A stretch of DNA of 29,567 nucleotides from a virus. Position 1 is the first letter of the stretch; each line of letters opens with the position of its first letter. The stretch is from the IMG/VR virus record IMGVR_UViG_3300023210_000153, positions 1 to 29,567 of that record. The stretch is one strand, 5' to 3'. Of this stretch, positions 1 to 29,567 are shown in pieces. The notes below the pieces were generated by a model, which ran no database searches, was not told the origin of the DNA, and worked only from the letters and a program-made list of their open reading frames with translations. The position numbers and the translations under genes are program-made.

Positions 1-3000
1 ACAAGTAAGTTACCAAATTGATTTGCTACACCTATGTGTTGTTCATTTGTAAACCTATTACCATAAACAGCTTTATGAGCATTTTTTAATTTTGTTTTAA
101 TCTGCGTAGAGGTTAACTCTTGTAGGTTTAATCTTTTAACTTCATCATAAAACCTAGTTCTATTATCCAACCAGTCTGTTCTTTCGCCGTCAGTAAATAA
201 AGCTAATTGATCTTTAACACTTGGTCTAGAAACATCATACATTAATTGCTCTACGTAATTGTCTAGTATGTCAGCTCCAAAAAACTCTTGACGTTCTATA
301 AAGTCTCTTCTTATTTCACTATTAACATCTTGTATCTGCTCATTAAACATGTCTAATCCTATCTCTTGAGCTATTTGTTTAGCTAAAGCTTCTGTAGGCA
401 TTTGAGGTATTTTTAACTTACCATTATCAAGTTTAATATATTTAGATTTAAATTTCGCTAAAGGTATAGCGTTTTTAATATCTTTTACTCTTCGTATTTT
501 TTGATTACCAGCGGTGCTACCAGCCATAGGACCTAGTTCAGTAGACCTGTAAAAATCTATTTGCCCGTCTTTACTGCCTTTTGTTCTACCTTTCCATTTA
601 TCATACTTAACCCAACCCATGCCGTTAACATACTTCTCTACAGCCAAAGGAAAAGCTTTTGCTAGATATGTAGTTGTAAGACCGTTTGGCCCTAGCAGTG
701 TAGTGTAGTTTTCATTTAAAAATTGCTCGTATAGATTTATGGTTTTATTTCTAGCACCCATTGCATCTATAACAATTTTAAAAGATCCTTGCATTCCTTT
801 TCCTAACTCATTTACAAAATCAGTTTTTTGTTTTGTGGTAGTGTCGGCGTTATATTTAGGTAATCTATATCTAATTTCTTTACCTAGTTTTTGTTCTAGT
901 TTACTTTCTACTTCTGCTTGGTTTGAAAACTTTACTTTTTCTTTTAAAGTAGGTTTTACTTCTTTAGCTTCTACTTCGGCTCTTCTGTTTAAGGTTTCTG
1001 TATTGTCTGTTGACTGAACATTTTCAGCCGCATTATCTTCACCTATTCTAACATTGGCTTTTCCTTTTGGAACACCTAGCTCCGTGGCAAATGCATTAGC
1101 TCTTTGCATACCAGTATTAGCCATGTAACTATTGAAGGTTGCTAAATCTGGATCCCATTTTAATGCTATCTCACGAAGTTTACTTTTCGCGTGATCTAAG
1201 TATGTTCTTCTACTGTAGTGTACTTCTCTTATGTTAAACGGTACTAAGCTACCAAATCTAGTCCAAGCTCTATTAGCAACTTTATTAACCATAGCATCTA
1301 CGTCTTCAGGTAGAATAGATTTAAAGTTTTCTTTGCCTTTAAATTTAATGTTTATTCTATCAGCTATTTGCTTAGAGTCATTAACTCCTTGTCTAGGTTT
1401 AATACCTTCTTTACCTACCTTTGCTCTAACTTGAGAGGTAAATTCACCTCTTCTAAAAGCTGCATTGTTTCCTATTAAATAACTTAAAGCTTTCTCAGGT
1501 GTATTCACCTTCAATCCAAAGCCAGCTCTATTAGCTAGCTTACTTAGTATATTTTGAGTACCATAAGTATCTTCTAAGTTTAATTCTTTTTCTAAAGCAT
1601 AACTAAGTGATTGCATTTCTGCAGCATACTCTATTTTAAACGTATCACCTCTTTCGTTAAAAGGTAATAATTCGCCTTTATCATTTCTAGCATCATTTGA
1701 ATATTCTTCATTACTTAACAAAGCATTTTCAACTTTTGTATTTAAAGATCTTAATATAGGGCTTTCACTAGTTGATGTGGCTTTGTAGAGGTTGTCTGTG
1801 TACTTATTAAACTCTTCTTTAGTGTCAAAGTAAGATTCATCGATAGCGTGACTGATCTCATGGTACACAACAACGCCAGCTCTAATGTCTCCATTTTCCA
1901 TAGCTTGATCTGCCGCCTCTTTATTTATTGTAATATATTCGTTGTCTACAATAAAACCATTCCCACCTTGTTTTAACTTGTCCGTGAAAAGACTTATGTC
2001 TTTAGGGTTTATCTTACCGTTCTCAGCTAGTGTATATAAGTAACTTATCTGATCTTCTATTTTAGGTATTTCAATTATTTTTAAAGCGCCTATGTTTTCA
2101 CGAGCCATTAATTGATCTGCCTTAAAGTCTATATCACTAGATACAGTTACTACTCTAGTGTCTTGGTCAAATAAAGATCTACCGCTTTGAGCATAGAAAG
2201 CATCCTGTAAAGCGTTTATTCTTTCTTTATATTCTTTTTTTCTTTTATCACCTTCATATTTAGAAGCTGCATTTTCTTTTAACTGCTCCCACTCTTTCTG
2301 TATTTCAGTATCTTCTTTAGCCTTATTAACATAAGACTCAGTCTCCATTCTATGTATTTCTTCTACAACTTGTGCTAACTCTTGTCTCTTGTCTAGTTTA
2401 CCGTTCCAGTTAGGGGTCTTTTCATCTAAGTTTAATTTAGCTTTTTTACCTGCATCACCTAATAACGTTTCTACATTGTCATAGTTTTTATTACCTTCTT
2501 TTATAGAGTTTATATTTGTATCTAAACTGTTTAAGTTTTGATCAAACCTATCTGCTTCAGTAGTAGTTAGTTTTTCTTTTTTGTAGTTATCAATTTGATT
2601 TTGAGCTTGGCTAGAATCCATATCAGGAGTAACGCCAGCTTCACTAAGTAAATTATTTTTTAATACATTTAAACCTACTAAGTCAACTACATTTTCAGAA
2701 CCTAAAGCAATTACATCTACGCCTAAAGCAGTTTGCTCAGCTCCTATATCTATAAGCTTTTGTTTTATAGCTGCGGTAAATGTTTTTCTTTGATTTTGAC
2801 TAACACCTGGACCATTCATTAGGTTAACCATTTCTTGTATCTCAGACGTAGCTTTGTTTACTGTTTCTCTAAACTTTTTAGTAGCCGACATTTCAGTTAT
2901 AGCTGATGTAGCTATTCCAGACGTGTTTGCAAATCCAGCTGTTATAAGAGTAGCTAAAGTAGTGTCGTCAAACTGAGACCAATCAGCGTCTCTTTGTAAT

Positions 3001-5702
3001 ATTAAAGATTCAGATATACCTTGTGTTCCACCGTATATAAGATTTTCTTCTACTAGTTCACCACCAATTCTTTTACCACCTTCTATTGCAAAACTTCCCC
3101 AAGCGTTTAAACTTGGTTTGTTAAATAGATTATATATATTAATTTGACCTTGTCCTTTAACATCTTTTAAAAACTTAAAGGTGTTATTAGCAGAACCTAT
3201 ATAATAAGTAACTCCACCCTCTATTATACCCGTAGCAACTGAAGCAGCGCCTATTTGAAACGGTGTCATTTCACCCATTGCTATAGTTTTCTCTGCATCA
3301 AGTAATCCTTGAGAATAATCAAATTGATCTATTCTACCAGCCTCCCATAAATTATTAAGAGTTTCAACTTGTTTGTTTGCCATGTCTAAAAGATCAGCTT
3401 GAATGCTAAGATTCCTATACATGTCCGTACCAGAAGTCACACCAAACGTAGACGCTATAGATGTTTTAACTAAACCATCACTAAGCTTTAAGGCATTACC
3501 TGCAGATCCAGTACCAATAGCTAATATTATATTTGGCGCTTGTTGAAATAAAGTTCTTACAGAATATAAACCAAATTCACCTTCACCAAACGCATCATCA
3601 TATGCTGCTGATGATTTATAGTATTCTTCTTTTCTTTGTAAAGCTTTTTGCTCATTAATAGCCCATTCAGAATTAAATAAAGTAGGTAAAGCTAAGGCTA
3701 TATTATAACTAGCGTCTGTAAAGTCTTTAGCAACTAAACTACCTATTTCATATTCTTTAAAAACATTACCAAATTCGTCTAGTATATTTCTTTTTACGTC
3801 TTTACCTTCTTCGTCTTTACCAACAACAACGTTAGTGCCTTCTCTAAATTGAGCAGCTTCAGCAACGTGATTAACGTAGTTTCCTACTGTTTTTTTGTAA
3901 TCAGATTCTAATCTTCCTAATGTGTTTTGTAGGGTTATTAAACGTGCGTTAGCCTCGTCGTATAACTGCTGTTGCCCTTCTGTTAATTCTTCTGTAGCCT
4001 CTAAATTAAAAAATAAAGTATTGTCTACAATACCGTCTGTCTTGGTGTAACCTATTTTAGCTGGTATATCTTTTAAGCTGTTGGCTATTAATTGTATTTC
4101 ACCTTCTATAATAGAACTTGTAGTATCATTATAGTTTTGAATTATTTTTGCTTCGCTTTTAATCTCATCTCTTATAACGTCATATCCAGCATTTTGCACA
4201 AGCAAGCCTATTCTAACCAACTCTCTTTCTCTTCTGTCATAATCATACATAACAGATTCAGCAGCTGTTTGTTTCGCTTTAGCAATTGCCCCTTCTCTTT
4301 GTGTTTTAACAGAGTAGTCTATAGCGTTAGACCACAAGTTGTTATTTAAAAGTTTTTCTTTTAAAGCAGCACTATCAATTCTAACCCCTTCGTCAGCAAA
4401 CTGCATAGTATCTAAAAAATCTAGATTACGTACATAATTTAATTGTTCTTCAGGTGTAAGCATTACCAACTCGTCTTCTGTTAACATACTTCCAGAGTCT
4501 ACATATTCACCTCTTCCCTCGGGATTAGCAGAAAACTTAAGCATATAATCTATGGCTTTTTGTTCTGCCTCTGTAAAATACTCTTTATTTTTTAATATAT
4601 CCGCAAGTTTAGAAAACTGTCCAGATAAAACATCATAATCAAAAAGTTCTTCGTCTGGCTTACTATTTACAGCATCAATACGTTTTGTCTCTTCAAGATC
4701 TAAAGTTTTTAAATGAGTAGATAACAAAGGGTACATGTTGGCCATAGACTTAGATAAATCTTCTTTAGTGAAGTTTTCAGCTATATAGTTTTCTATACTA
4801 TCCGTATTACCTGTTCTTACTGGACTTTCTATTTCTTGATTAAATATATCACTAGCTACTACTTGTCCGTTTTGTTTTAATTCATAACCTATCACAAGAC
4901 CTTCCTGTTCTACAGGTTCAAATGTATAAGGGGTATCTTTTAAATTATCATTAACGTCTTCAACGTTTAAAGCTCCGCTATCAAAAGCGTTCATTATATT
5001 AGAAAACGCACCTTGTTCAAAAGCGTTTTTGGCTTTAATTGTTTTTTCGTATTCTTGTATTTTCTTATAATTCTCAAAGAATTCTTTTTCACCTTTTTCA
5101 GTAAGTGGATTTAAGTCTAATGTAACTTTATCACCACCTAGATTAGCTGTAATTTTGTCATCTAAAAAATAAGAGTTATCATCAAAAACAATACCTGAAA
5201 ATTCACCTTGTAAAGCAAGTATAACTTCTTCGTTACCTTTTCTTATTATAGTCTCAGGTATTTCTAAGTTTATATCTCCTTGCTCTATTTTAGTCTGAGC
5301 GTCTTTAACTAGTTTTTCTAATTTTTTTCTAGCACCTAAACCTGCTCTACCATTATTGGGATCAAATAGTTCGTTATTAAAATGAGCTAGATTAGCCTTA
5401 GCTTGTTTTAATTCTTTAAAAGGGTCTTCATCAAATACATCTGTGGCTGAGGCCAAAGAAATATTTTCCAAATCTAATTCCGTACTCTCGGGTGCTGGAT
5501 CTATATCCGTCACTACACTTGCACCCGCATTTGGTACAGTGACTTGTTGAAAATCTATTTTTTCAGTTTCAATCTCCTCAACATCACCTAGTTCAGCTAG
5601 GCCATTTTGGCTTATATATTGATCAACAAGTTCTACACCACCAGCTAGACCCACTAGCTCGTCATATGTGTATCGTTGTCCCGTTTCTGGGTTTACATAC
5701 AT
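1..5702 (-). CDS. giant putative virion-internal (cargo/ejection) protein with HExxH motif, partial (C-terminus beyond window)
   Basis: One frame stays open from an ATG at 5702 to the left edge, giving at least 1900 residues without a stop. I spot-checked the frame at several places and saw no frameshift. The N-terminus (VNPETGQRYTYDEL) resembles starts I associate with marine phage proteins. Three hydrophobic, Gly/Ala-rich stretches lie near residues 710-740, 810-840 and 910-940 and could insert into a membrane. A zinc-peptidase motif HEISH sits at residues 1281-1285 (1848-1862), with candidate third-ligand glutamates E1358 and E1362 in an EYAAE context. Long charged, coiled-coil-like segments fill the rest. 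It is the last and largest of three consecutive genes after the muzzle genes, the place where T7-like phages keep ejection proteins and crAss-like phages keep giant cargo proteins. An injected multidomain protein is my inference. I cannot assign an enzyme family beyond a zincin-like site. Confidence 0.75.
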   Translation of the reverse strand, partial: MYVNPETGQRYTYDELVGLAGGVELVDQYISQNGLAELGDVEEIETEKIDFQQVTVPNAGASVVTDIDPAPESTELDLENISLASATDVFDEDPFKELKQAKANLAHFNNELFDPNNGRAGLGARKKLEKLVKDAQTKIEQGDINLEIPETIIRKGNEEVILALQGEFSGIVFDDNSYFLDDKITANLGGDKVTLDLNPLTEKGEKEFFENYKKIQEYEKTIKAKNAFEQGAFSNIMNAFDSGALNVEDVNDNLKDTPYTFEPVEQEGLVIGYELKQNGQVVASDIFNQEIESPVRTGNTDSIENYIAENFTKEDLSKSMANMYPLLSTHLKTLDLEETKRIDAVNSKPDEELFDYDVLSGQFSKLADILKNKEYFTEAEQKAIDYMLKFSANPEGRGEYVDSGSMLTEDELVMLTPEEQLNYVRNLDFLDTMQFADEGVRIDSAALKEKLLNNNLWSNAIDYSVKTQREGAIAKAKQTAAESVMYDYDRRERELVRIGLLVQNAGYDVIRDEIKSEAKIIQNYNDTTSSIIEGEIQLIANSLKDIPAKIGYTKTDGIVDNTLFFNLEATEELTEGQQQLYDEANARLITLQNTLGRLESDYKKTVGNYVNHVAEAAQFREGTNVVVGKDEEGKDVKRNILDEFGNVFKEYEIGSLVAKDFTDASYNIALALPTLFNSEWAINEQKALQRKEEYYKSSAAYDDAFGEGEFGLYSVRTLFQQAPNIILAIGTGSAGNALKLSDGLVKTSIASTFGVTSGTDMYRNLSIQADLLDMANKQVETLNNLWEAGRIDQFDYSQGLLDAEKTIAMGEMTPFQIGAASVATGIIEGGVTYYIGSANNTFKFLKDVKGQGQINIYNLFNKPSLNAWGSFAIEGGKRIGGELVEENLIYGGTQGISESLILQRDADWSQFDDTTLATLITAGFANTSGIATSAITEMSATKKFRETVNKATSEIQEMVNLMNGPGVSQNQRKTFTAAIKQKLIDIGAEQTALGVDVIALGSENVVDLVGLNVLKNNLLSEAGVTPDMDSSQAQNQIDNYKKEKLTTTEADRFDQNLNSLDTNINSIKEGNKNYDNVETLLGDAGKKAKLNLDEKTPNWNGKLDKRQELAQVVEEIHRMETESYVNKAKEDTEIQKEWEQLKENAASKYEGDKRKKEYKERINALQDAFYAQSGRSLFDQDTRVVTVSSDIDFKADQLMARENIGALKIIEIPKIEDQISYLYTLAENGKINPKDISLFTDKLKQGGNGFIVDNEYITINKEAADQAMENGDIRAGVVVYHEISHAIDESYFDTKEEFNKYTDNLYKATSTSESPILRSLNTKVENALLSNEEYSNDARNDKGELLPFNERGDTFKIEYAAEMQSLSYALEKELNLEDTYGTQNILSKLANRAGFGLKVNTPEKALSYLIGNNAAFRRGEFTSQVRAKVGKEGIKPRQGVNDSKQIADRINIKFKGKENFKSILPEDVDAMVNKVANRAWTRFGSLVPFNIREVHYSRRTYLDHAKSKLREIALKWDPDLATFNSYMANTGMQRANAFATELGVPKGKANVRIGEDNAAENVQSTDNTETLNRRAEVEAKEVKPTLKEKVKFSNQAEVESKLEQKLGKEIRYRLPKYNADTTTKQKTDFVNELGKGMQGSFKIVIDAMGARNKTINLYEQFLNENYTTLLGPNGLTTTYLAKAFPLAVEKYVNGMGWVKYDKWKGRTKGSKDGQIDFYRSTELGPMAGSTAGNQKIRRVKDIKNAIPLAKFKSKYIKLDNGKLKIPQMPTEALAKQIAQEIGLDMFNEQIQDVNSEIRRDFIERQEFFGADILDNYVEQLMYDVSRPSVKDQLALFTDGERTDWLDNRTRFYDEVKRLNLQELTSTQIKTKLKNAHKAVYGNRFTNEQHIGVANQFGNLL

Positions 5703-5717
5703 ATTTATTTATTTTTA

Positions 5718-7484
5718 TTATAAGTCAATGTAATCTGTTAACTGCACTCTTTCATCGTTAGTAAATGAGGATTTTCCATTGTGTTTTGAAGTTACCCAGG
5801 CACCAGCGCCTGTTACACCTTCTGAACTAGACTTCACCCATATCATTGGTTTCCAATTATCTCCAGAAGACATTATTTTTCTATCACCAGCTTGTGGTTT
5901 AGATAATCTACCAGACATAGCTGCACTAAATATATCACCTCTAAAGTTTGTATTTTCAAATCTATTTACTTGAGCGTTTTTATTAGACAAGGCTGTTTGT
6001 TGATTCGCCGTCAAACCTTTAGAACCTTGTGGAGCATAAGATACAGATGGAGCTGATTCTTTGAAGTAACCATATTCACCAGCTTTGTAATTAGTAAGAC
6101 CTCTTTCTTGTAGCTGTTTTATATCATCGTCTGTTAATTCTTTTCTAACAAAACCAAAGCCAGGTGTTTCACCCACTTCATCTTCAGCTTCTTCACGAGT
6201 ATACTTTTTATTAGTATCTGGATTTGTACTTGCCATTAACTGGTCAATATTCATAGAGCTAGTTAATCCGGCGTCTTCTCGTATTTTATTTATTTCAGCT
6301 AACCTTAACCACGATTTTTGCTGTTCTTCTGTTAGTTGGACAAACTCGTTAATATTAATATCACCCATTTCTAAGCGTTGTTCCATATAAGCTTTCTTAT
6401 CTCTAGGTGGTAAAGCATATAAACTAGCTAATCTTCCGTCTAATTGTTTTTCTAAACTTTTATTTATACCTTTCATATCTATAAATTCAGACGCGACTAA
6501 AGTTCTAACTTTACCAGCATCTGTACGTATGGTATCTCCAACAGGCGTCCAAGCCGTTTTAAAACTAGCTGTTACTTCACCTTTTGATTTATCTAGTATA
6601 TTAGCATCTACTAAAGTTTGATTTCCATCAGTGGCTGCTTCAGTCGCTTTTAATAACTGACCGTCCCAGTTTTTCATGTTTTTCTTCCACGTAAAAGTAA
6701 CACTACCATCATCATTTATTTTATATGCATTATTAGCGTCTTTGTTTTTAGCCTCTGTTAACCAACCACCTTCTCCTAAACCACTTTTTAATATTTTAGA
6801 ACCTTTTGCAACTGTGGTTACAACTTCTACTACTCTATCACCGTTACTTAATCTCCTGTAATCTTTGCTATCAACAGTCATTCCTTCAGCTGAAATGTTC
6901 GATAAACTAAAAGCTGCTAATTGAGTACCTAGTTGTTCTTGAAAATTACCACCTTCCCAGTTTGATTCACGACCTGGACCTGGTCCATCTTTATATAATT
7001 CTACATCTTGTACGTCTGATAGTATTATACCAGCATCGTTTTGTAAATCTCTTAAGTTTTTATTTGCAGCAGAAACTTTATCATTTAGATCTTTTCTTTC
7101 TTGTTTATCTAAACCTCCTCTAGTTTTTAAAATAGTTTGAGCTTCTATAGAACCCATTACATAATCATCGTCACCAGGTTTACCAACACCTTCCATTAGT
7201 CTAACTTGTGTTTCTTTACCTTTGTCTATTAAAGAGTTTTCTAAACCAGCGTCTTCAAGATCTTCGTAAGTCTTGTCAGCATTTTCGTAAGCTTTTAATG
7301 AAGCTTCGTTCCAAGCTAAATCAAATACTTCTTGTTTTTTCTTAGCTGTTTCAGCGTTTTTAATTTTAAAATCTACATAATTCTGATAACCTGTGACTAC
7401 AGCTTGACTGACTTGTTGTGCAGCTGCTGCCCAAGCTAAAGCTGATTTATCGTTTATTAATTTAGGATTGTCGTATGCGCTCAT
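5718..7484 (-). CDS. putative internal virion / ejection protein (588 aa)
   Basis: I do not recognise a family. The N-terminal 60 residues include an Ala/Gln-rich helix (ALAWAAAAQQVSQAVV) followed by a Lys/Ala-rich, coiled-coil-like region. The middle carries short hydrophilic loops and a patch reading GDRVVEVVTTVAKGSKIL that looks like beta structure. No signal peptide or clear membrane span is visible. It is separated by 15 bases from the giant protein downstream and by 17 bases from the 242-aa hydrophobic protein upstream. Its place as the middle member of a small, medium, giant trio resembles T7 gp14-gp15-gp16, so a role as an internal or cargo protein that travels with the DNA is plausible. 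That is inference from position and size. The ATG is preceded by an A/T-only leader, as elsewhere in the window. Confidence 0.72.
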   Translation of the reverse strand: MSAYDNPKLINDKSALAWAAAAQQVSQAVVTGYQNYVDFKIKNAETAKKKQEVFDLAWNEASLKAYENADKTYEDLEDAGLENSLIDKGKETQVRLMEGVGKPGDDDYVMGSIEAQTILKTRGGLDKQERKDLNDKVSAANKNLRDLQNDAGIILSDVQDVELYKDGPGPGRESNWEGGNFQEQLGTQLAAFSLSNISAEGMTVDSKDYRRLSNGDRVVEVVTTVAKGSKILKSGLGEGGWLTEAKNKDANNAYKINDDGSVTFTWKKNMKNWDGQLLKATEAATDGNQTLVDANILDKSKGEVTASFKTAWTPVGDTIRTDAGKVRTLVASEFIDMKGINKSLEKQLDGRLASLYALPPRDKKAYMEQRLEMGDININEFVQLTEEQQKSWLRLAEINKIREDAGLTSSMNIDQLMASTNPDTNKKYTREEAEDEVGETPGFGFVRKELTDDDIKQLQERGLTNYKAGEYGYFKESAPSVSYAPQGSKGLTANQQTALSNKNAQVNRFENTNFRGDIFSAAMSGRLSKPQAGDRKIMSSGDNWKPMIWVKSSSEGVTGAGAWVTSKHNGKSSFTNDERVQLTDYIDL

Positions 7485-7501: not shown

Positions 7502-8230
7502 TTATCCGGTTGCAGCTTTATAATTTAAACCAGCTGAAGCCATACCTGTTACACCTGATATAGCAGATCCCCATGCCCCTGCTTCCGCAGCAGCTGCGTT
7601 AGATTGTGATTGCATAGCGTTTGCTAAGTTACCAGCTTCATACCCTAAATCAGCATTAGATCTAGCTTCTTCCATTTGCATTTGGAAAGTCTTACCAGCG
7701 GCTTCACCAGCTTGTAATCTTTGACCTTCTGCTATTGCTATACCTTGTAGTCTCTGTTCCTCTGAAACCTTCATAGCTTGAAGCGATGCTTCGCCTTGTG
7801 CTCTTAGTTGTTCGTTCTTAGCCTCTTGAGCTTCAATGTCTGCAGCAACACCTTTCTTACTAGCTAAGGCAGCTTGAGCTAAAGCGGTTGCTCCACCAGC
7901 GCCAGCACCTGTAGATTTTATTGTATCCAACGTATTAGCTAAAGCTATATCAGCTTGTTCCATTTTAATTTCTGCGGCTTGAGTCGCTACACCTAAACTA
8001 GAAAATGGATTATTCATCATACCAGACAAATTCTCAGCTAATCCAGATAGGTTAACTTGATTTGCATAAGGATTAACTATATCAACTCTAGCAGCTTTAA
8101 TCGCTGCTATTTCTGCTCTAGCCCTATTAGCATCATTACGAGCTCCTTGACCTGCTTTTTTTGCCTGGTTAGCTGACACTGCTCCTCCAATAAGGGAAAC
8201 TCCAGCTCCGATTGCTGCTACTGCTGCCAT
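7502..8230 (-). CDS. putative internal virion protein, T7 gp14-like in character (242 aa)
   Basis: A small, very Ala-rich protein. Residues 2-20 form a hydrophobic, glycine-spaced segment and residues about 217-236 a second one (GAWGSAISGVTGMASAG). Between them is a long Ala/Gln/Glu-rich stretch, about residues 85-215, that should be helical or coiled coil. Hydrophobic ends around an amphipathic helical core are typical of small podovirus ejection proteins that form a channel in the host outer membrane, such as T7 gp14. I infer the function from this character and from the position between the muzzle genes and the larger internal proteins. The start lies one base from the stop of the GNAT-like gene upstream, which suggests coupled translation. 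A structural role outside the ejection apparatus cannot be excluded. Confidence 0.7.
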   Translation of the reverse strand: MAAVAAIGAGVSLIGGAVSANQAKKAGQGARNDANRARAEIAAIKAARVDIVNPYANQVNLSGLAENLSGMMNNPFSSLGVATQAAEIKMEQADIALANTLDTIKSTGAGAGGATALAQAALASKKGVAADIEAQEAKNEQLRAQGEASLQAMKVSEEQRLQGIAIAEGQRLQAGEAAGKTFQMQMEEARSNADLGYEAGNLANAMQSQSNAAAAEAGAWGSAISGVTGMASAGLNYKAATG

Positions 8231-8231
8231 A

Positions 8232-8645
8232 TTATCTTATTTTTTTAATTATTTCATGTGATGGATTTTCATCCACCGTGTACCCTAATTTCTTGTGTTT
8301 ATCTATTAGACTTTTGCTTCTACCTATACTAAGTATTAATTTAAAACCTCCATCATAAGCCCATTGCTCTAATGAATCTATTAATAATAATATAGCTTGC
8401 TCTCTGTCTTTTTTAATTCTATACTTTGGATTTGATATAATCCACTCCATCCAAGCTATTTTTGAATTTGTTCCGTATAAAAAACCTGCTACTATAGGTT
8501 CACCTTCTTTTTCTATTATAATTCCACCTGTACCGTTTTCAGGTAACATTTCTTGTGACAAAGGTTCCCATTCTGGCCAAGACTTCCACCATTCTACAAT
8601 AGTACTATAGTCTTCTTCAGTTAGTCTTCTTGCTGTTAATTTCAT
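8232..8645 (-). CDS. GNAT-fold acetyltransferase-like protein (137 aa)
   Basis: The protein starts with a beta strand and helix typical of GNAT proteins (TARRLTEEDYSTIVEWW, residues 4-20), then a strand pair around IIIEKEGEPIVAGFLYGT (residues 42-59). A WMEWIISNPKYR strand (65-76) follows, with a helix at 80-97 and a C-terminal KKLGYTVDE segment (118-126), which matches the usual GNAT ending. The normal acetyl-CoA pyrophosphate loop (Q/R-x-x-G-x-G/A) is not obvious: YRIKKDREQ lies where it should be. The protein may therefore be a divergent enzyme or a non-catalytic relative. GNAT-like genes occur inside structural modules of other marine phages as I remember them. Here the gene sits between the muzzle genes and the ejection genes. 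The substrate is unknown. Confidence 0.72.
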   Translation of the reverse strand: MKLTARRLTEEDYSTIVEWWKSWPEWEPLSQEMLPENGTGGIIIEKEGEPIVAGFLYGTNSKIAWMEWIISNPKYRIKKDREQAILLLIDSLEQWAYDGGFKLILSIGRSKSLIDKHKKLGYTVDENPSHEIIKKIR

Positions 8646-8659
8646 TTAATTGTATTTAA

Positions 8660-10225
8660 TTAATAAGATGATCTATTGAATTCGCTAGAAACTGCGAATA
8701 ATTCTCTTTGTGCTGACTGGTTCGCTGTTGGAACAGTAAACTTTACTTCAGAGGTAAAACCTTTAACACCTGTCACAGCTTGTCCAAATAAAACCTCACC
8801 TTGTTGTACAGCTGTTAGGTTTAATAAATTAGCAAAATATTTATTTTCTTTTCTTTTAAAATTGTTAGTAAATAAAGATGTTTGCAAGTCAGCTAGTGTT
8901 GTTGATAGTTGATATTCTGATATTTGTAAAGCTACATCTTGATCAGTTGTCAATGACTCCATGATCCAACCACCACTACCTTCGTAGTTAATAGTGTTAA
9001 AGTTTTTAACAACCGAAGGTGAAGGATTAAGCACTAGATTAACACTAGATGTGTGAGTTGTATTATAAAACTGAGCTCTGTTTACGCTTGTAGAATAATG
9101 CTGCCATATTTCACCTTCATAATAAGTGTATAAATTATTTCTTAAACTTCCAATTGCATCTGGGAAATAATCAAATCTACTAGTCCAACCCTTTACCGCT
9201 TCATCAAAAGCGACAGTCTCAGGATCAAAACCATTTTTAACTAAACCTTCAGCTCCACCTATAGAAACGATGTATTGTTTATTGTGCATGTCGTAACCAC
9301 CAACTATTGGTAAACTACCTGCGCCAGCTAAATTGTCTCTAAAGAAATCAATCATACCATACATAGATATTTCAGTAATACCGTCTTGTGATAATCTTAA
9401 TATTAGATTTTTAGTTCTATCTGCAAAGTACTTTCTATATCCAAACACACCAAAGCTTTCTGGATTTGTACTTATTCCGTATTCACCAGCATAAGGTACT
9501 ATGCCACCTATCACTACGTTTGAAGCCGCTTGTAATGGTTGACCTTCTTGAGTATATATAGCGTCTTTATCTATAAGTGCTTTACTTACTTTTAATTCTT
9601 GAAATATAATTAAGTTAGTATCTTCGGCATAAAGTTTTTGTATAGAACCATAAGAAGGGTCTACGCTTCTAGTGATGTTATCTGCTACAGAAAATTGATT
9701 AGTATTGTTAACGCCTGTTCTAGAATTAAAAACTCCAGAATATATCATAGAATTAAATCTATTGTTCTGGGAAGCGTTGTCCTCTACTAAATAAGCTTTT
9801 ACACCTAAGTCCACATTTGTGTTGTTGTAACCTCCTCTTATCCTAGCTTCTTCAGCGTACCAGTCTGTTGGATCACTTGAGTAAACTCTAGGTATTTCAG
9901 TAAATAATTCAATAGGACCAAAAATTAAAACATCTGTAGCTGTTAAATTTACAGGTTCAGACAAAGTAACTGTATAAGGAGATGCACTCATTGAAGAGGA
10001 TATTAAATAAACTTTACTTGGAAATCCTACCACATCAACTCCATTTGCATCTTTAGCATAAACCCTTTGTCCATAACCTAAATCAGGAACATAAGTAGTA
10101 ATTGTTTGAGTAGCGCTATTAGCATCTACATCTATTATACCAGTATTAGGCCTAACCTCTGCTATAGAATCCATCTTCTTTATCCAAAAAGAGTTAAAAT
10201 AGTTTATTTCAATAGTTGCCGCCAT
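8660..10225 (-). CDS. muzzle/stabilization-type tail protein, smaller second part (521 aa)
   Basis: The protein is mostly beta-rich and lacks a signal peptide. A conserved-looking block in the middle, about residues 160-230, includes SGVFNSRTGVNNTNQF, GSIQKLYAEDTNLIIFQE and LIDKDAIYT. I recall these from the tail stabilization or muzzle proteins of crAss-like and other marine podoviruses, where they occur in the same long protein as the signature found in the neighbouring 1770-aa gene. Here the two blocks lie in separate genes, 33 bases apart. A later segment (FGVFGYRKYFADRTKNLILRL, about residues 255-275) also looks propeller-like. I infer a virion protein at the distal end of the short tail. 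A receptor-facing role is possible but not shown. The ATG follows an A/T-only leader (TAATATAATATGG). Confidence 0.72.
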   Translation of the reverse strand: MAATIEINYFNSFWIKKMDSIAEVRPNTGIIDVDANSATQTITTYVPDLGYGQRVYAKDANGVDVVGFPSKVYLISSSMSASPYTVTLSEPVNLTATDVLIFGPIELFTEIPRVYSSDPTDWYAEEARIRGGYNNTNVDLGVKAYLVEDNASQNNRFNSMIYSGVFNSRTGVNNTNQFSVADNITRSVDPSYGSIQKLYAEDTNLIIFQELKVSKALIDKDAIYTQEGQPLQAASNVVIGGIVPYAGEYGISTNPESFGVFGYRKYFADRTKNLILRLSQDGITEISMYGMIDFFRDNLAGAGSLPIVGGYDMHNKQYIVSIGGAEGLVKNGFDPETVAFDEAVKGWTSRFDYFPDAIGSLRNNLYTYYEGEIWQHYSTSVNRAQFYNTTHTSSVNLVLNPSPSVVKNFNTINYEGSGGWIMESLTTDQDVALQISEYQLSTTLADLQTSLFTNNFKRKENKYFANLLNLTAVQQGEVLFGQAVTGVKGFTSEVKFTVPTANQSAQRELFAVSSEFNRSSY

Positions 10226-10258: not shown

Positions 10259-13200
10259 TTAGCAAATGTTTGCCGCTGAACCAGACATTCCCGCGAATCG
10301 AGTTACTGGTATACCTCCAGGTTTTACGTTTGTAGAACCATTAACAGTACCTGTACCATCAAAAGATTGCGCTAGAATAACTGTTGCTGAATCACTAGGG
10401 TAATTAGGATCGCTTATTGTATAACCATTTACGACTTCACCAGTTGCGCTAAATTTTCCTTTATAAACTACCATGCTAGCACGTTTCATGTTTGAAGGTT
10501 CAGATGGTGGATTCCAAGTGCTAAAACCTGAACAAATGGTACCTGGATTATCATTAACAGTCCAGTAGAATTCCCCAGCTTGGCAATTACCTCCTTGAAC
10601 ACAGTAGAATTTTTGAATTAAACCTCCTTCGAAAGTGTGATACAAATCACCTTGAACACCTTGATTTGGCTCCCATGGAGTTAATAAAGTTGAATCACTA
10701 AAGAATTGTCTAACAGTACTACCATACTTTGCGTGAGCATACACTGTGTCTGTTGGAGCTCCTATTGGTAGCAAACTTGCGTTCGGAAAAGTGCTGGTTG
10801 TTCCACCGTTTGTTTGAACTGTATATGGATAACTATATAAAACACCTTGATCTTGAGCTGCTCCTGTAAAATCAAAATTAGCATCTTCAGCTGTTATATA
10901 AGCGTAACCTTGATACATCCCTTGAACTCCAAAACCCGAATCACAAGCGCAACATCCTTGCTGCACTCCAGATGCAGCTATATTATTAATAGCTTTTACA
11001 GCTATAAAATATTCACCAGGTAATTGATTAGCGTCTATGTAAAAAATACCTGATGTACTGACAGAGTTAGCTTTTGTTGCAGGGGAGCTTCTTACAGCAT
11101 CTGCTTTCAGATCAAAAGCTGGTGAAGATCCAACATTATTATTTGAGCGCTCTGCTGCATTAGCATCGCTGATTTCAACCCAAGAGTTTTGGTTTGGTGC
11201 GGTTACACTAGCTGCTCTATGAAATATCTTAACATATTGAATTTCTGAGTTGTTTGCTGGTATCGACTCATTGTTATTACAATCCATTAAATTTTCTAAA
11301 TTAACAGTTATCACCATTGCTCCAGTTGTTAATGCTACAGGTGTTAAGCCAAGTTGACCACCTATACTACCCTCAACTTGACTAACCATGTTATAAACCT
11401 CACCACTACCTAAACTAGGCGCTTGATTATTAGTTCCATTAACAATAAGTGGTGTTGTGCCTGGGCCACCGTTTTGTCTTGGTCCAAAATAAAAACCACC
11501 AATACCAAAACACTGTGGATTACCGCTGGCTGGAGTTAAACCAACGCCAGTACCATCAGCGTTAGTAGTAGGATCAATAACGCCTGATTGATACCCCATT
11601 CTGTTACAGTCTCCATTACCAGGAGCTTGACAAGGATTTTGAACAGTACTTGCTTCCTGTGTCCATATTGGTTCACTCTGAAAATCACCTTGATAATAAG
11701 GTGGAACCATTTCAGGACCTACAGTTATTGTAAATGAGCATGTTGTTTGCATTGTTGCGTACTCAGGCACCGCATTAGTGAGAGGACCACCAGTGCTAGT
11801 TAAATATGCGTCTCTAACTCTAACAGTTAAAGGATAAACCCCTAAAGGAACGTTTTGACCTAAAGTTTGATTTAAAGTAAGTATACCTGTTGTGCCATTT
11901 AACACAAAATAATTACTGCTGTTACCGGTTGTTATATCAAAAAACAAATCTGTTCCTACATCTGCTAATTTTGTTGTGCCATTAACTGCATTAAAATCTA
12001 TAACAGTTCCTGTTTCTGTTTGACTAGTTACAGTTATATAATCACTACAATTAGCAAGTGTAAATGACGGTGTAAAGTTTTGTAGTCTACCTGGAAAAGT
12101 TCTTGTTGTTACTTCTCCGTTATAAGTTATAGCTAAAGAGAAAGTAAAATTTTCTACAGTTGCTGCTGAATTTAAAAAAGCGTGATTGCTGTTTATAAAC
12201 TTAACTCTATAACCACCTGCATCTTGCTGTGAAGATTGAGGCACTTGTTCTAATTGAAAATCACCAGAAACATCACTACCAGCAAGATTCGTAACAGTCA
12301 TAACCGCTGTTGTGTTTGTGAGATTTACACCTGTGTTATTACGAGGATAAAATATATCTGTTATCCAAGGTGATGCTGGGTCACCTGTAATACCGGTTAA
12401 TATTAAATTATCTAGCCCGTCAAAGTTTTGATTTTCAATAAATTTAAAACCTACATCTGAAAAACCACCTGGTGCATCTGATCCAGCTTCTACATCTTGA
12501 TTGATGTCTGAAATATAATTCCAACCGGTCGTGCTTTCCCAGAAAATATCTAATAACGAATCTACTGGGGCAGTTTCATATATGCTCAACCAAGGTACCA
12601 TATCAGCCGCTATAACACCTAGTTTTTGATTTGTAGAAAACCTAGCTATAATAGGATTTGTTTCTAATTGATATAAGTTTCTAGCTGCGCTACCGTTAAA
12701 ATTATCTACTGAGTATTGATAAAAACCTAAGTCATCTGCAGTACCTACTGTAGAGGCAATATCAGGTTTTTGTGTAGGGTAATATTGTTCGTTGTCACCA
12801 TACTCTATTATTATATTATCAGCGTCTGCTTTAATAGCACCACCTGGGCTAAATGTAACTATTGTTTCATCTTCAACAGCATCGTATTCCACTTTTGTTA
12901 TTAAAGTAGCATTAGAGAAAAACTGAGGATCTTGATAAGCAGGAGGGTTACTAGTTGGCGTACAATCTGGGTACGAGATTTCACACTTGCCCATTAACAA
13001 AGCCATACCTGGTTCTAACGCTTTTTCTTGACCTGTACAAGAACCTGTTGGACAAAACACTGTTGTGTTTGTAGGATCGTTAACTCCATCGAATCTAATT
13101 TCATTTACCTGATCAGCACCAGCACCACCAGGCTGGCCACCAGAATGACTCCAGTTTGTTATATTAAATTTACCCTCGTAGTTGTTTACTCTACCAAATA

Positions 13201-15571
13201 ATTCTACACTACTTCTATATTGTTTTTGATCAGGTCCTACTTCAGATAAATCTCTAGGTATTTTATTTATATTATCGTTTATTAAAACAGCATGAGCGGT
13301 ATCGTCTAGTTCACCACCTGGAAATAAAATTTCATTTATACCATTAGCGTTTGCTGCATAAGAATAAGCATCACCTGCTGTGTCTGTGCCTACCACATAT
13401 TGAATTTCGCTACCTTGAGTCATTTGCTCAGGATATCCATCTAAAAATCCAGGTAGATATGCGTTATAATAATCTTGTTCTCTTTGTTTAACTACTATCT
13501 TATAAGAATACCAGCCTAATGGATTTATAAAGTAAGCAAACTTAGTATCAGTGTCTGTATTTTCTATTAAGTATAAATAATAGCTATTTGGCTTATCAAG
13601 CGTTGTAATGCTAGTTGTCCCTGCTGCGCTACTAATGCTTAGTACTTGAGTGTAGTCTACGTATTCACCTCTTAAATACATGTCTGTTGTAGGTAAAGAA
13701 CCTATAGTTGGTGTAGAGAAGCTTAATGTCCACCTGTTAGTACCTGCGTCATAAGTTAAAGAATCATTAGTGCTATTATCTACAACCCAAGATGTTTGAG
13801 GTTCTCCGTATATACCTGGAGCACCTGTAGCTAAATTACGATCCGAAGATCCTATTGTAAAATCACCTATTGTTTGATTTAACAAAAGCAAAGCCGCGTC
13901 ACCAAACCAAGACTTTACATCTAATGAATCATTAGCGTCGTAGTACGGGTGGAAAACAGTTGATCCGCCAAATATAGTACTACCTTGAGAGGCTGAAAGC
14001 GTATCGTATGTAGATAAAATAACCGAGGATTGTCTTCCAAATTTATCTGATAAAACAAAACCTATTTGATAAGTTCTATTTTGTTTTATTGTGTGATTAG
14101 GATATTCTGCCCAAGAAGTATACAAGTCATTTTTTTCTTGCACTGTACAGTTGTAGTCAAGCGTATCGTAAGGTGTGTGCTTGTCTCTAAAGTTGCCATA
14201 TATAACTCTATTACCAGCAACAGATTGTGCTAATGCTCTAACTGGTACTTTATCATAAACCCTAGTTGTTTGTCCTTCAGTTAACGTTTTATATGGTTTT
14301 TCAGATTGATATTCATAAACATAAACATCTTCGTCCATTTCAGAAGCCATAGTCGTACCTGATATGGTTTTTAAAACCTTAACAACTAAACCATTTGATT
14401 CTTTATATAGTATGTCTATGTTTTTTATCTTATATTCTGTAAGTACGTTTTTAGAGGTACTACCTCCTAAGTTTTGATTTGTACCGACTCCAGGCAAAGG
14501 TATTCTTAATTTAACATTATCCACGTTGTTCTCGAACCACTTAACAATAGTACTTTCATAAGCCTGTGTTTCGTTTCCATTTAGAAAAAATCCAGATTGT
14601 TGAGGTATAAATGCTATTTGGGTAAAAGGAGACATTAAAGAATATTCACCATCATCAAATTGAAACCTATACGCAAATCTAACGTATTTATCTTCTAAAT
14701 ATCTAGGATCACCAGGCCAACTAGTATTACCACTTTCGTTTGTCATTGTAGTTTCAATAAACCTAAGCCTTTGCCCAACAACAACAACGGTAGCAGGATC
14801 TGCATTAATAGTTACAGTGTTTGTAACTGTATCTATAGCTGTTACTCTTATATATTCACTACCAAGTATACTTTCTGATCCTACGTTTTGAGCAGCATTG
14901 GAAACTACAAACATATCAATAGATATACCGGTAACTGTTTCTAATATAAAATTCTTAGTATCTGTAATTGTAACGACAGTAGTATCTACCTCTTTATAAA
15001 GTTCAGGAGGATTTGTCGGCATATATTTAGCTACAGATATTTGACTTTCTTTAGTGTAATAGTTAGGGTTTGATAAAGCTGTAGTTACGTTTATTTTTCT
15101 AGGTTGATTTCTATTATCAGTCCAAAATAATAAATTCTCTACTAAATTTATTCCTGTAACTTGCCAACATCTGTTTTTAGCTAAATTTAAAAACTTACCT
15201 TCAACTAAAGTACTATAAGTATTATTATTAAGATCAAGAACAGTTATTTTCATTTCTACAGCAGTAGATGCTGATGGATAATTTATCGTTTGGCAAGTAG
15301 CGTCTACATCAGTATAGTCTGTTAATATTTGAAATATTCTATTACCAACTTCATCTTCAAACTTACCTATACATTTTAAATTAGCATTGCTAGAGGTTGT
15401 AGGCGGGATTAAAATATTACCTAATATATTCTCAAGCGAACCAACATCATTGTCTTCTGATCTACCTACAGATATATTCAGAGCATCTCTATATTCACCG
15501 TTAGGCAATATTCTATCATCAAGATCTTTATTCATCTTGGATTTTAGAAAAGTATTTTTAGCTTCTGCCAT
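10259..15571 (-). CDS. large muzzle-type tail protein with adhesin-like C-terminal half (1770 aa)
   Basis: The N-terminus contains KDLDDRILPNGEYRDALNIS followed by ENILGN, a signature I associate with muzzle/stabilization proteins of crAss-like phages. A second signature, GNRVIYGNFRDKHTP with a nearby DKFGRQSSVIL, lies at about residues 450-510. The C-terminal half differs: about residues 1170-1280 look cadherin/Ig-like (FVLNGTTGILTLNQ then YPLTVRVRDA). The final 450 residues are rich in Cys, Gly, Asn and Pro, with a CCACDSGFG cluster near residue 1540 and other scattered cysteines. I therefore see an N-terminal virion-anchoring part plus an exposed part that could bind the host surface. It ends three bases after the 418-aa ring protein gene stops. 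The family assignment comes from remembered motifs; the adhesin role is inference. Confidence 0.75.
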   Translation of the reverse strand: MAEAKNTFLKSKMNKDLDDRILPNGEYRDALNISVGRSEDNDVGSLENILGNILIPPTTSSNANLKCIGKFEDEVGNRIFQILTDYTDVDATCQTINYPSASTAVEMKITVLDLNNNTYSTLVEGKFLNLAKNRCWQVTGINLVENLLFWTDNRNQPRKINVTTALSNPNYYTKESQISVAKYMPTNPPELYKEVDTTVVTITDTKNFILETVTGISIDMFVVSNAAQNVGSESILGSEYIRVTAIDTVTNTVTINADPATVVVVGQRLRFIETTMTNESGNTSWPGDPRYLEDKYVRFAYRFQFDDGEYSLMSPFTQIAFIPQQSGFFLNGNETQAYESTIVKWFENNVDNVKLRIPLPGVGTNQNLGGSTSKNVLTEYKIKNIDILYKESNGLVVKVLKTISGTTMASEMDEDVYVYEYQSEKPYKTLTEGQTTRVYDKVPVRALAQSVAGNRVIYGNFRDKHTPYDTLDYNCTVQEKNDLYTSWAEYPNHTIKQNRTYQIGFVLSDKFGRQSSVILSTYDTLSASQGSTIFGGSTVFHPYYDANDSLDVKSWFGDAALLLLNQTIGDFTIGSSDRNLATGAPGIYGEPQTSWVVDNSTNDSLTYDAGTNRWTLSFSTPTIGSLPTTDMYLRGEYVDYTQVLSISSAAGTTSITTLDKPNSYYLYLIENTDTDTKFAYFINPLGWYSYKIVVKQREQDYYNAYLPGFLDGYPEQMTQGSEIQYVVGTDTAGDAYSYAANANGINEILFPGGELDDTAHAVLINDNINKIPRDLSEVGPDQKQYRSSVELFGRVNNYEGKFNITNWSHSGGQPGGAGADQVNEIRFDGVNDPTNTTVFCPTGSCTGQEKALEPGMALLMGKCEISYPDCTPTSNPPAYQDPQFFSNATLITKVEYDAVEDETIVTFSPGGAIKADADNIIIEYGDNEQYYPTQKPDIASTVGTADDLGFYQYSVDNFNGSAARNLYQLETNPIIARFSTNQKLGVIAADMVPWLSIYETAPVDSLLDIFWESTTGWNYISDINQDVEAGSDAPGGFSDVGFKFIENQNFDGLDNLILTGITGDPASPWITDIFYPRNNTGVNLTNTTAVMTVTNLAGSDVSGDFQLEQVPQSSQQDAGGYRVKFINSNHAFLNSAATVENFTFSLAITYNGEVTTRTFPGRLQNFTPSFTLANCSDYITVTSQTETGTVIDFNAVNGTTKLADVGTDLFFDITTGNSSNYFVLNGTTGILTLNQTLGQNVPLGVYPLTVRVRDAYLTSTGGPLTNAVPEYATMQTTCSFTITVGPEMVPPYYQGDFQSEPIWTQEASTVQNPCQAPGNGDCNRMGYQSGVIDPTTNADGTGVGLTPASGNPQCFGIGGFYFGPRQNGGPGTTPLIVNGTNNQAPSLGSGEVYNMVSQVEGSIGGQLGLTPVALTTGAMVITVNLENLMDCNNNESIPANNSEIQYVKIFHRAASVTAPNQNSWVEISDANAAERSNNNVGSSPAFDLKADAVRSSPATKANSVSTSGIFYIDANQLPGEYFIAVKAINNIAASGVQQGCCACDSGFGVQGMYQGYAYITAEDANFDFTGAAQDQGVLYSYPYTVQTNGGTTSTFPNASLLPIGAPTDTVYAHAKYGSTVRQFFSDSTLLTPWEPNQGVQGDLYHTFEGGLIQKFYCVQGGNCQAGEFYWTVNDNPGTICSGFSTWNPPSEPSNMKRASMVVYKGKFSATGEVVNGYTISDPNYPSDSATVILAQSFDGTGTVNGSTNVKPGGIPVTRFAGMSGSAANIC

Positions 15572-28132: not shown

Positions 28133-29050
28133 TTATTGTTTATTTTGACCACCTCTATACATTTTAACAACCTCGTCTCTACTGAAAAGACCGCTCTTAA
28201 GTCTAGATTGTGCAGCTGCTTGACTTCCAGCTCTACCTGCGAACCTCTGTCCTTGTGGCGTTAATTGTCTATGTCTAGGCAATCTATCTAACGCTTTATT
28301 AGCAGAGTTAATAGAATCATTAGCGGCTGTAATATTTGCCTCTTCTCTATCAAAATTCAAAGTCTGTGCTCTATTTTCATTTCCAATATTAGCTTGAAGA
28401 AGTGTCTCAGCCATTGAGTTTGGTGATGTAGTTGTATTAGAAGTAGTTGTACTGTTACCAGCGTTAGTATTGTCAGATGAACTACTAGACGTCGTTACAT
28501 TCGCAGAACTATTTTTATTCTTTTTTTCCGCCAACATTTGTTTGTACTTTACTGGATTATTTGCTATCCATTCCTTTTGCTTTGCTCTTTCTACAGGGTC
28601 AGAGCTAAAGTTTGTTCTTGTTGATGTTGAAGAGTTAGAATTAGAAGAACTAGAATTATCGCCTCCAGTAGTGTTTGAGCTAGAAGAAGTACTTCCACCA
28701 CCACTAGTATTTCTAGAGGTTATTGTTTTTGTAGGGTGAGTATGACCTTCTGGGCCACCGTGCCCTGTGTCAGCTGCTCCATGCTTCATGTACTTAGAAG
28801 CTCCAAAACTCATTACACTAGCTACTTTCGCAGCTCCTTTAGCATAACCATTCATTCTTGCAGCTCCAAAAGATTGAGAGTAACCCATTTTTGCAGCACC
28901 ATGTGGGTGATCGTGAGAACCTTTAGATGTATCATAATCATGAGCACCTTTGTATTTAGCTGCACCTTTTTGGTTTGCTTTTAATTCGTTAGCAGGGGCT
29001 GTTGAACTTTCGCCACCACCGTCTTGATTTGTTTTCATTTTTTTATCCAT
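28133..29050 (-). CDS. low-complexity His/Ser-rich protein with GAAK-type repeats (305 aa)
   Basis: The start at 29050 (MDKKMKTNQDGG) is chosen because it overlaps the preceding stop in a TAATG junction; the longer frame to 29110 would overlap the previous gene by 61 bases. Residues about 27-95 carry seven short motifs of the pattern G-A-A/S/H-K/R/D (KGAAK, KGAHD, HGAAK, FGAAR, KGAAK, FGASK, HGAAD) between His-rich stretches (SHDHPHGAAK, GHGGPEGHTHP). About residues 105-150 and 175-215 are Ser/Thr/Asn-rich linkers. The C-terminal 80 residues are charged and possibly helical (LNFDREEANITAAND, then LPRHRQLTPQGQRFAGRAGS). I do not recognise a family. It could be a virion protein whose basic repeats contact DNA or capsid. 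Confidence 0.68.
   Translation of the reverse strand: MDKKMKTNQDGGGESSTAPANELKANQKGAAKYKGAHDYDTSKGSHDHPHGAAKMGYSQSFGAARMNGYAKGAAKVASVMSFGASKYMKHGAADTGHGGPEGHTHPTKTITSRNTSGGGSTSSSSNTTGGDNSSSSNSNSSTSTRTNFSSDPVERAKQKEWIANNPVKYKQMLAEKKNKNSSANVTTSSSSSDNTNAGNSTTTSNTTTSPNSMAETLLQANIGNENRAQTLNFDREEANITAANDSINSANKALDRLPRHRQLTPQGQRFAGRAGSQAAAQSRLKSGLFSRDEVVKMYRGGQNKQ
28769..28969 (-). repeat. protein-level GAAK-type repeats and His-rich patches
   Basis: Within the 305-aa gene, seven GA(A/S/H)(K/R/D) motifs occur at irregular spacing, preceded by K, H or F. The DNA is not a perfect tandem repeat, so selection acts on the protein pattern rather than on recent duplication. Confidence 0.65.
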
Positions 29051-29427
29051 TACGTTTGTTTGTTTTTTTGCATTAATTTTTTTTCTGCTAATTGAGCATC
29101 TTTTTCCCAAGGACCTTTACCGGCCTGCATTACTGAGTAATCATATTCTTTTCCTTTAAACATTACTTTACCAGCTCCTTCAGAATTTACCTCATAATCT
29201 AATCCACTACCTGGATTTTTTATTTCACTTTTGTATTGATCAACGTGAACTTGCTCATGAGCTAATGTTTTTTGCATTTCTACTGGATCATCTAGTAAAT
29301 CTTCATTTAAAATAATAACTCCATTTTTAGGCGTTCGCGCATAAACAGGATCATCACCCATATCTCTTTCAAATACAGACGTGTTCATTTTGTTTAAATC
29401 GAACGGAGGGTTTATTTTAAATGCCAT
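29050..29427 (-). CDS. small zinc-peptidase-like protein with HEQVH motif (125 aa)
   Basis: HEQVH at residues 57-61 is a classical zinc-binding HExxH site, preceded by NGVIILNEDLLDDPVEMQKT (35-54) as a strand and helix leading into it. A later WEKDAQLAE segment (107-115) offers E108 and E115 as the third ligand. Phage-encoded predicted peptidases of this size are usually unassigned, and the target is unknown. I choose the ATG at 29427 over one at 29478: the longer frame would overlap the upstream gene by 62 bases, while 29427 overlaps it by only 11. The next gene starts inside its stop codon (TAATG), so peptidase and repeat protein are likely made together. No signal peptide is visible. Confidence 0.68.
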   Translation of the reverse strand: MAFKINPPFDLNKMNTSVFERDMGDDPVYARTPKNGVIILNEDLLDDPVEMQKTLAHEQVHVDQYKSEIKNPGSGLDYEVNSEGAGKVMFKGKEYDYSVMQAGKGPWEKDAQLAEKKLMQKNKQT

Positions 29428-29567
29428 TGTTGTAAGGAAATTTTTTATTAAACCATGATTGTCTTTTATCACAACCACAAGGTATGTTAAGACCGTCTGA
29501 TATTTTATCTACAACGGTCTTAATACCTGTTTTGTTAGTGAATTTAGCAATGCTATCGCCTAATCCT
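29417..29567 (-). CDS. partial protein with C-terminal Cys-Gly-Cys motif (5' end beyond window)
   Basis: The minus-strand frame is open from the right edge to a TAA at 29417-29419 and gives 49 residues. They read as a helical segment (SIAKFTNKTGIKTVVDKISD) and then IPCGCDKRQSWFNKKFPYN. I have seen CGC-K/R-R...FPY tails in unnamed small proteins of Bacteroidota phages, but I can give no function. The two cysteines may bind a metal or form a disulphide. The stop lies 11 bases past the next start codon, as in other coupled pairs here. The N-terminal part is outside the window. Confidence 0.62.
   Translation of the reverse strand, partial: GLGDSIAKFTNKTGIKTVVDKISDGLNIPCGCDKRQSWFNKKFPYNNGI

Follow-up and report, generated by a model that had tools for sequence, protein, structure and literature searches.

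A putative zinc metallopeptidase domain in a giant, probably ejected protein of environmental crAss-like phages

Zincins and giant ejection proteins in described phages

Zincin-like metallopeptidase (MPTase) domains were described in the polyvalent proteins of phages by Iyer et al. 2017 (PMC5512222). Since that year, zincins have been predicted for giant proteins that phages inject, with no substrate reported in the literature searched. The C1 domain of the N4 virion RNA polymerase (vRNAP), gp50, is a zincin in such an injected giant (PMC12633501). In phage crAss001, the cargo proteins C1 and C2 and gp47/gp49/gp50 are stored in the capsid and tail and are ejected (PMC10172136). The searchable text of Iyer et al. 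2017 (PMC5512222) mentions neither crAss-like nor Cellulophaga phages, and no report that brings crAss-like phages and zincins together was found in the literature searched. The original prediction, that no injected peptidase of this type had been described in crAss-like phages, held for this group in that literature, but it needs narrowing, as injected zincin giants as such are known (PMC5512222; PMC12633501).

We analyzed a window of 29,567 bases from an IMG/VR virus record, by which we mean the whole stretch of DNA, and which by its Pfam and PHROG matches appears to be part of the genome of a crAss-like podovirus from the environment. In a PHROG search of the window proteins, the terminase matched phrog_6681 (E=1.9e-163) and the capsid protein phrog_13704 (E=5e-84); the match to Crass_capsid (PF23898) in the Pfam search was weak (E=0.061). 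Judged by the muzzle, capsid and terminase families that were matched, the window appears to belong to the crAss-like phages in the broad sense. Comparisons of capsid and muzzle pointed to phages infecting marine Flavobacteriia (Cellulophaga, Flavobacterium, Maribacter, Tenacibaculum) and to the Manatee Spring genome MW202828 as the nearest isolates.

Like the polyvalent proteins (PMC5512222), the giant protein of the window is a multidomain protein with a zincin in mid-protein, in which HExxH is followed by a Glu in a later helix. The HExxHxxD and HExxxH variants of polyvalent-protein zincins (PMC5512222) are both represented here, by the window and by the homolog L089, respectively. The giant is encoded next to virion genes, and unrelated enzymatic domains, a zincin and a HAD-like phosphatase domain, are combined in one chain, as expected of a polyvalent protein. 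In its presumed mode of working, it would count among the polyvalent proteins of phages that bear a zincin. It differs from the described members in that no ART, MuF, SWI2/SNF2 or LPD-type hub domain was detected by Pfam.

The giant shares with N4 gp50 the last place in a small-medium-giant ejection set (gp52, gp51, gp50 in N4) and the HExxH motif, which is located at position 2228 in the ejected N4 protein. In contrast to the N4-type enzyme, the giant lacks a T7-like RNAP domain; no Pfam or PHROG match to a single-subunit RNAP of this kind was obtained for the related giants P0002 and P0003. A comparison of the window and N4 zincin profiles with hhalign gave a probability of 20% (p=0.0012), which is suggestive only, and a likeness between the C-terminal part of the giant and the N4 C2 domain was discarded, since none was detectable. 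By sequence, the giant has the site residues of a gluzincin but does not reach the Pfam cut-off for M78, and it is not an N4-type RNA polymerase. The location of the giant after the muzzle gene is shared with the large cargo of crAss001, but that cargo is RNA-polymerase-associated, whereas the window giant matched no RNAP family. The order of a small, a medium and a giant protein (242, 588 and 3,237 aa) also corresponds to that of the T7-type ejectosome (gp14/gp15/gp16).

Extent of the giant and its gene neighborhood

The features of the locus are listed in Table 1. The giant had been predicted to occupy a single long frame, and 1,900 residues without a stop were indeed found in the window. 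The frame is cut by the window edge, and the C-terminus falls outside. The missing end could be recovered from related contigs, in which the complete giant has 3,237 aa (P0002) or 3,264-3,265 aa (L006/L008). Across the shared part, P0002 is about 96% identical to the window giant, and the L006, L008 group about 70%. Searched as a whole protein against Pfam, PHROGs, PDB sequences and annotated phage genomes, the window giant yielded nothing significant. When the full-length giant was compared to a profile of sister giants of about 2,200 residues, residues 513-3183 were aligned with a score of 950 bits, which shows that the syntenic giants are homologs and not chance neighbors.

Table 1. Features of the giant protein and of the neighboring genes in the window.
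Feature	Position	Strand	Basis
Giant protein in ejection-gene position (residues 1-1900 out of about 3,237)	3..5702	-	ORF without stop from the ATG at 5702 to position 3; complete length in L002, L004-L008
Zincin-like metallopeptidase domain (putative), residues about 1196-1425	1428..2117	-	Alignments A4/A6, AF2 models, L108 Peptidase_M78 match
HEISH, residues 1281-1285 (HExxH; D1288 makes HExxHxxD)	1848..1862	-	H1281, E1282, H1285 invariant
E1358, candidate third zinc ligand, within EYAAE	1629..1631	-	Invariant in 33 rows of A6; predicted helix
Gly/Ala-rich, weakly hydrophobic region, residues 640-960	2823..3785	-	20% G+A; maximum Kyte-Doolittle 1.15
588-aa protein, T7 gp15/N4 gp51-like place in ejection set	5718..7484	-	Position and order alone
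242-aa Ala-rich T7 gp14-like protein	7502..8230	-	Pfam T7_gp14 (PF24072) E=0.021, below curated cut-off; position of phi38:1 gp99
137-aa GNAT-like protein	8232..8645	-	phrog_17252 E=3.9e-32; conserved neighbor, locus anchor
Muzzle-type tail protein, crassvirus muzzle C-terminal domain	8660..10225	-	PF25729 E=3.7e-10, above cut-off; phrog_14478 E=3.9e-49

Upstream of the zincin, membrane-like Gly/Ala segments had been suggested. The richness in Gly and Ala was confirmed for residues 640-960, but since no 19-residue stretch in this region exceeds a mean hydropathy of 1.15, the segments are weakly hydrophobic or amphipathic and not clear membrane helices. The region is among the slowest-changing parts before residue 1900, with a dN to L008 of 0.15 as compared to 0.34 for the zincin, and the corresponding N-terminal region of the sister giants is kept in L101, a giant without zincin. 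The most conserved part of the family, as seen in the alignment of full-length giants, is the C-terminal 700 residues (about 2490-3150).

Beyond the window, a HAD-type phosphatase/polynucleotide-kinase-like domain was observed at residues about 2315-2510 of P0002 (about 15943-16530 in L002). It contains the motifs DFDDT, LTARP and TDD, its counterpart in P0003 matched phrog_415 “polynucleotide kinase” (E=6.7e-4), and it was found in a subset of the relatives only. A motif resembling sigma-factor region 2 (EYDPxxGVPLAAYI) just past the zincin in relatives was rejected, as Pfam gave no sigma match in the 14 full-length giants.

Along the direction of transcription, the giant is located after the terminase, portal, capsid, tail and muzzle genes and closes the series of muzzle, GNAT-like, gp14-like and gp15-like genes, in agreement with the last place in the ejection-gene block that had been predicted for it. 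The sequence match of the gp14-like protein to the T7 gp14 family is under the cut-off (Table 1), and the 588-aa protein had no family match in Pfam or PHROGs. The identical gene order was identified in Cellulophaga phage phi38:1 (gp97-gp101), the elemo phages (gp22-gp18) and Manatee Spring, and Maribacter phage Panino, phi19:3 and Gundel_1 retain the small-medium-giant set with local rearrangements. Database annotations label the giants of phi38:1, elemo, phi19:3 and Gundel_1 as structural or virion structural. This conserved order, together with the structural labels of the isolates, makes carriage in the virion and ejection likely, and we consider the window giant very probably to be a virion-carried ejection protein, as originally suggested.

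In a very large number of environmental phages (at least 540 confirmed matches in viral contigs), a single gene for a GNAT-like protein lies between the muzzle gene and the ejection genes, and the phi38:1 counterpart, gp98, is annotated as a structural protein. The muzzle-type protein is one ORF in phi38:1 (about 1,325 aa) and elemo (about 1,470 aa); in the window, the muzzle part is a separate ORF of 521 aa (8660-10225) behind an ORF of 1,770 aa (10259-15571, minus strand), as if split.

Conservation and predicted fold of the zincin-like domain

With the GNAT-like neighbor as anchor, a procedure that is blind to the sequence of the giant itself, 80 syntenic loci were gathered. Giants with 1,500 or more residues, from both these loci and the isolates, formed 42 clusters at 80% identity. 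The HExxH motif was retained, and not lost, in most of these homologs: it is present in 36 of the 42 clusters, as compared to 0.18 expected by shuffling, and in none of 200 residue-shuffled copies of the cluster representative L031. A 37th cluster, L089, has the HExxxH variant HEMVGH (giant residues about 1011-1100), with EYLAYMLEAFA downstream.

In the window giant, HEISH and EYAAE are located at residues 1281-1285 and 1358-1362, as predicted, with 77 residues from H1281 to E1358, and the sequence context VVYHEISHAID places HExxH on a hydrophobic helix. In the trimmed alignment of 33 homologs (A6), the only invariant columns are H1281, E1282, H1285 and E1358. The H, E and H of HExxH are also invariant across the 38 sequences of alignment A4, and in the alignment of 14 full-length giants (A5) only G1249, the HExxH residues and G1394 are invariant before position 2270. 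The four invariant residues of A6 are those that a gluzincin-type zinc peptidase needs, and their persistence in divergent homologs argues for the zincin-type peptidase site that had been proposed. The alternative third ligand, E1362, was ruled out because it is not conserved, being Y or S in some relatives.

The homolog L108 passes the gathering cut-off of Peptidase_M78 (PF06114; 30.5 bits versus a cut-off of 22) with residues 96-236, which span HExxH and the third Glu. The domain of the window itself, in contrast, has no Peptidase_M78 match and is above no Pfam cut-off; three weak Pfam matches were obtained for the segment, including the zincins M91 (E=0.011) and ATLF (E=0.22). AlphaFold2 (AF2) models made from 38 and 33 sequences had mean pLDDT values of 80.6 and 83.4, with values of about 94-98 for the catalytic helices. 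In the models, a strand is followed by two helices, two strands, a further helix, the HExxH helix, inserted helices and the E1358 helix; the core series of strand, helix, strand, strand, HExxH helix and Glu helix has pLDDT 87-98. E1358 is residue 159 of the 228-residue model and lies in predicted helix 154-170. The order of the elements agrees with the minimal zincin core of polyvalent proteins, which consists of three strands, the HExxH helix and the Glu helix (PMC5512222). The models put HExxH in a confidently predicted mixed alpha/beta core and not on the surface of a coiled coil. A Foldseek search of the PDB returned no significant match with either model, and a search of BFVD with the longer model likewise returned none, so the case for a zincin rests on conservation. 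A search of PDB sequences with the A4 profile recovered helical repeat and coiled-coil chains only, which were judged to be compositional matches.

HExxH is a short motif, and the empty Foldseek searches might be taken to mean that it arose by chance in a helical protein. Set against the number of clusters that retain it, the four invariant residues and the L108 score above the Pfam M78 cut-off, such an origin is exceedingly improbable, and we consider it refuted by the conservation. The sequence evidence suggests that the domain binds zinc and that it is likely to be an active peptidase.

The syntenic giants of the isolates (phi38:1 gp101, elemo gp18, Manatee Spring UOF82488.1, Gundel gp74, phi19:3 gp129 and Panino gp69) follow the muzzle, gp14-like and gp15-like genes, as in the window. 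Those of elemo, Manatee Spring and Gundel contain HExxH like the window giant, unlike those of phi38:1, phi19:3 and Panino. The motif is absent from the latter three and from L072 and L101, and this distribution argues that it is not essential to ejection. The zincin is a module that is sometimes lost, and five clusters are without it. Close to nine in ten clusters in this large group of phages have the domain, and its sequence evolves rapidly around the four fixed catalytic residues; a few lineages lack it naturally. In L072, it has been cleanly lost at giant residues about 690-715, with both flanks homologous to giants such as L055. The difference in giant size with and without zincin was set aside as evidence, since the domain itself explains it.

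Other modules are found in the isolate giants: the elemo giant has DUF3293, and that of Manatee Spring has two HEFGH motifs. The Panino giant (L025:13229-18718), in which there is no zincin, has a tRNA-methyltransferase domain (phrog_4752, E=1.7e-16).

Possible targets of the zincin

We propose, tentatively, that the giant is an ejected modular protein with a zinc metallopeptidase that cuts most likely a host protein. The giant would be packed in the head as the final and biggest member of a set of three ejection proteins (gp14-like, gp15-like and giant) and would be driven into the host together with the DNA or before it. Packaging and envelope passage may be the task of the Gly/Ala-rich region and of the strongly conserved C-terminal part of about 700 residues, and the domain at residues about 1196-1425 would fold after delivery as a zinc metallopeptidase payload, which would then cleave a protein, most likely of the host. 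That a host protein is the main substrate is, taken by itself, also quite possible, though we stop short of calling it probable. The dN of the zincin is 0.34, as compared to 0.15-0.16 for the flanks; selection on it is purifying, with omega at about 0.05 between close pairs, and a surface that diverges faster than the flanks is expected if the substrates differ between hosts. Also, the zincin is the only recognizable enzyme-like domain in most complete sister giants. Because these giants have no recognizable second enzyme that would need release, and because the zincin diverges fast, we lean slightly toward cleavage of something other than the giant. In a narrower version, which we regard as doubtful, the last ejection protein throughout a broad environmental crAss-like clade would have a dedicated zinc protease as its constant payload, and a specific host protein, such as a defense or transcription factor, would be cut in the first minutes after entry, before phage gene expression.

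A somewhat less probable reading than cleavage of a host protein is that the zincin cuts the giant itself, during head maturation or after ejection, and thereby frees the N-terminal part for envelope passage from C-terminal modules such as the HAD-like domain. Self-processing has been proposed for polyvalent-protein zincins, with the processing of phage P1 DdrB as precedent (PMC5512222). The zincin lies downstream of the Gly/Ala-rich part and ahead of the C-terminal modules (HAD-like near 2315-2510 in P0002), which suits such a role, and an enzyme that co-varies with its own cleavage site in the giant would likewise account for the faster divergence. However, N4 vRNAP, with its HExxH domain, is packaged unprocessed (PMC5512222) and was solved as a recombinant full-length protein (PMC12633501), and many zincin-bearing relatives have no recognizable second enzyme. 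Moreover, L072 retains the flanks without the zincin, which indicates that the zincin is not needed for ejection itself. Alternatively, the fold may be kept for packaging or ejection and cleave nothing any more. The region of N4 that includes the HExxH domain is required for encapsidation (PMC5512222), and the loss of the zincin in five clusters implies that catalysis is dispensable in some lineages. Such a degenerate domain is nevertheless improbable, because the catalytic E1282 is invariant beside the metal ligands and would not be required by a purely structural metal site.

The last ejection proteins of the T7 type (T7 gp16) can bear wall-degrading domains. By analogy, and in view of the place of the giant in the ejection block, the zincin may act during passage on a peptide of the cell wall or on a protein of the envelope, and action on the cell-wall barrier was part of the original prediction. 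We find this just as improbable as a degenerate fold: the best family matches are to zincins of the intracellular type (M78, M91, ATLF), and no peptidoglycan-hydrolase family was matched by Pfam anywhere in the giants, which speaks against the cell-wall part of that prediction. Cultured relatives are available both with an HExxH giant (the Flavobacterium elemo phages and Tenacibaculum phage Gundel_1) and without one (Cellulophaga phi38:1 and phi19:3, Maribacter phage Panino), which makes the choice between self-processing and host targeting directly testable.

A second, small HExxH protein, which has no relation to the giant by size or position, is encoded at 29050-29478 on the minus strand. 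It consists of 142 aa, TLAHEQVHVDQYKSE, and matches the metallo-protease family phrog_87 (E=9.8e-6).
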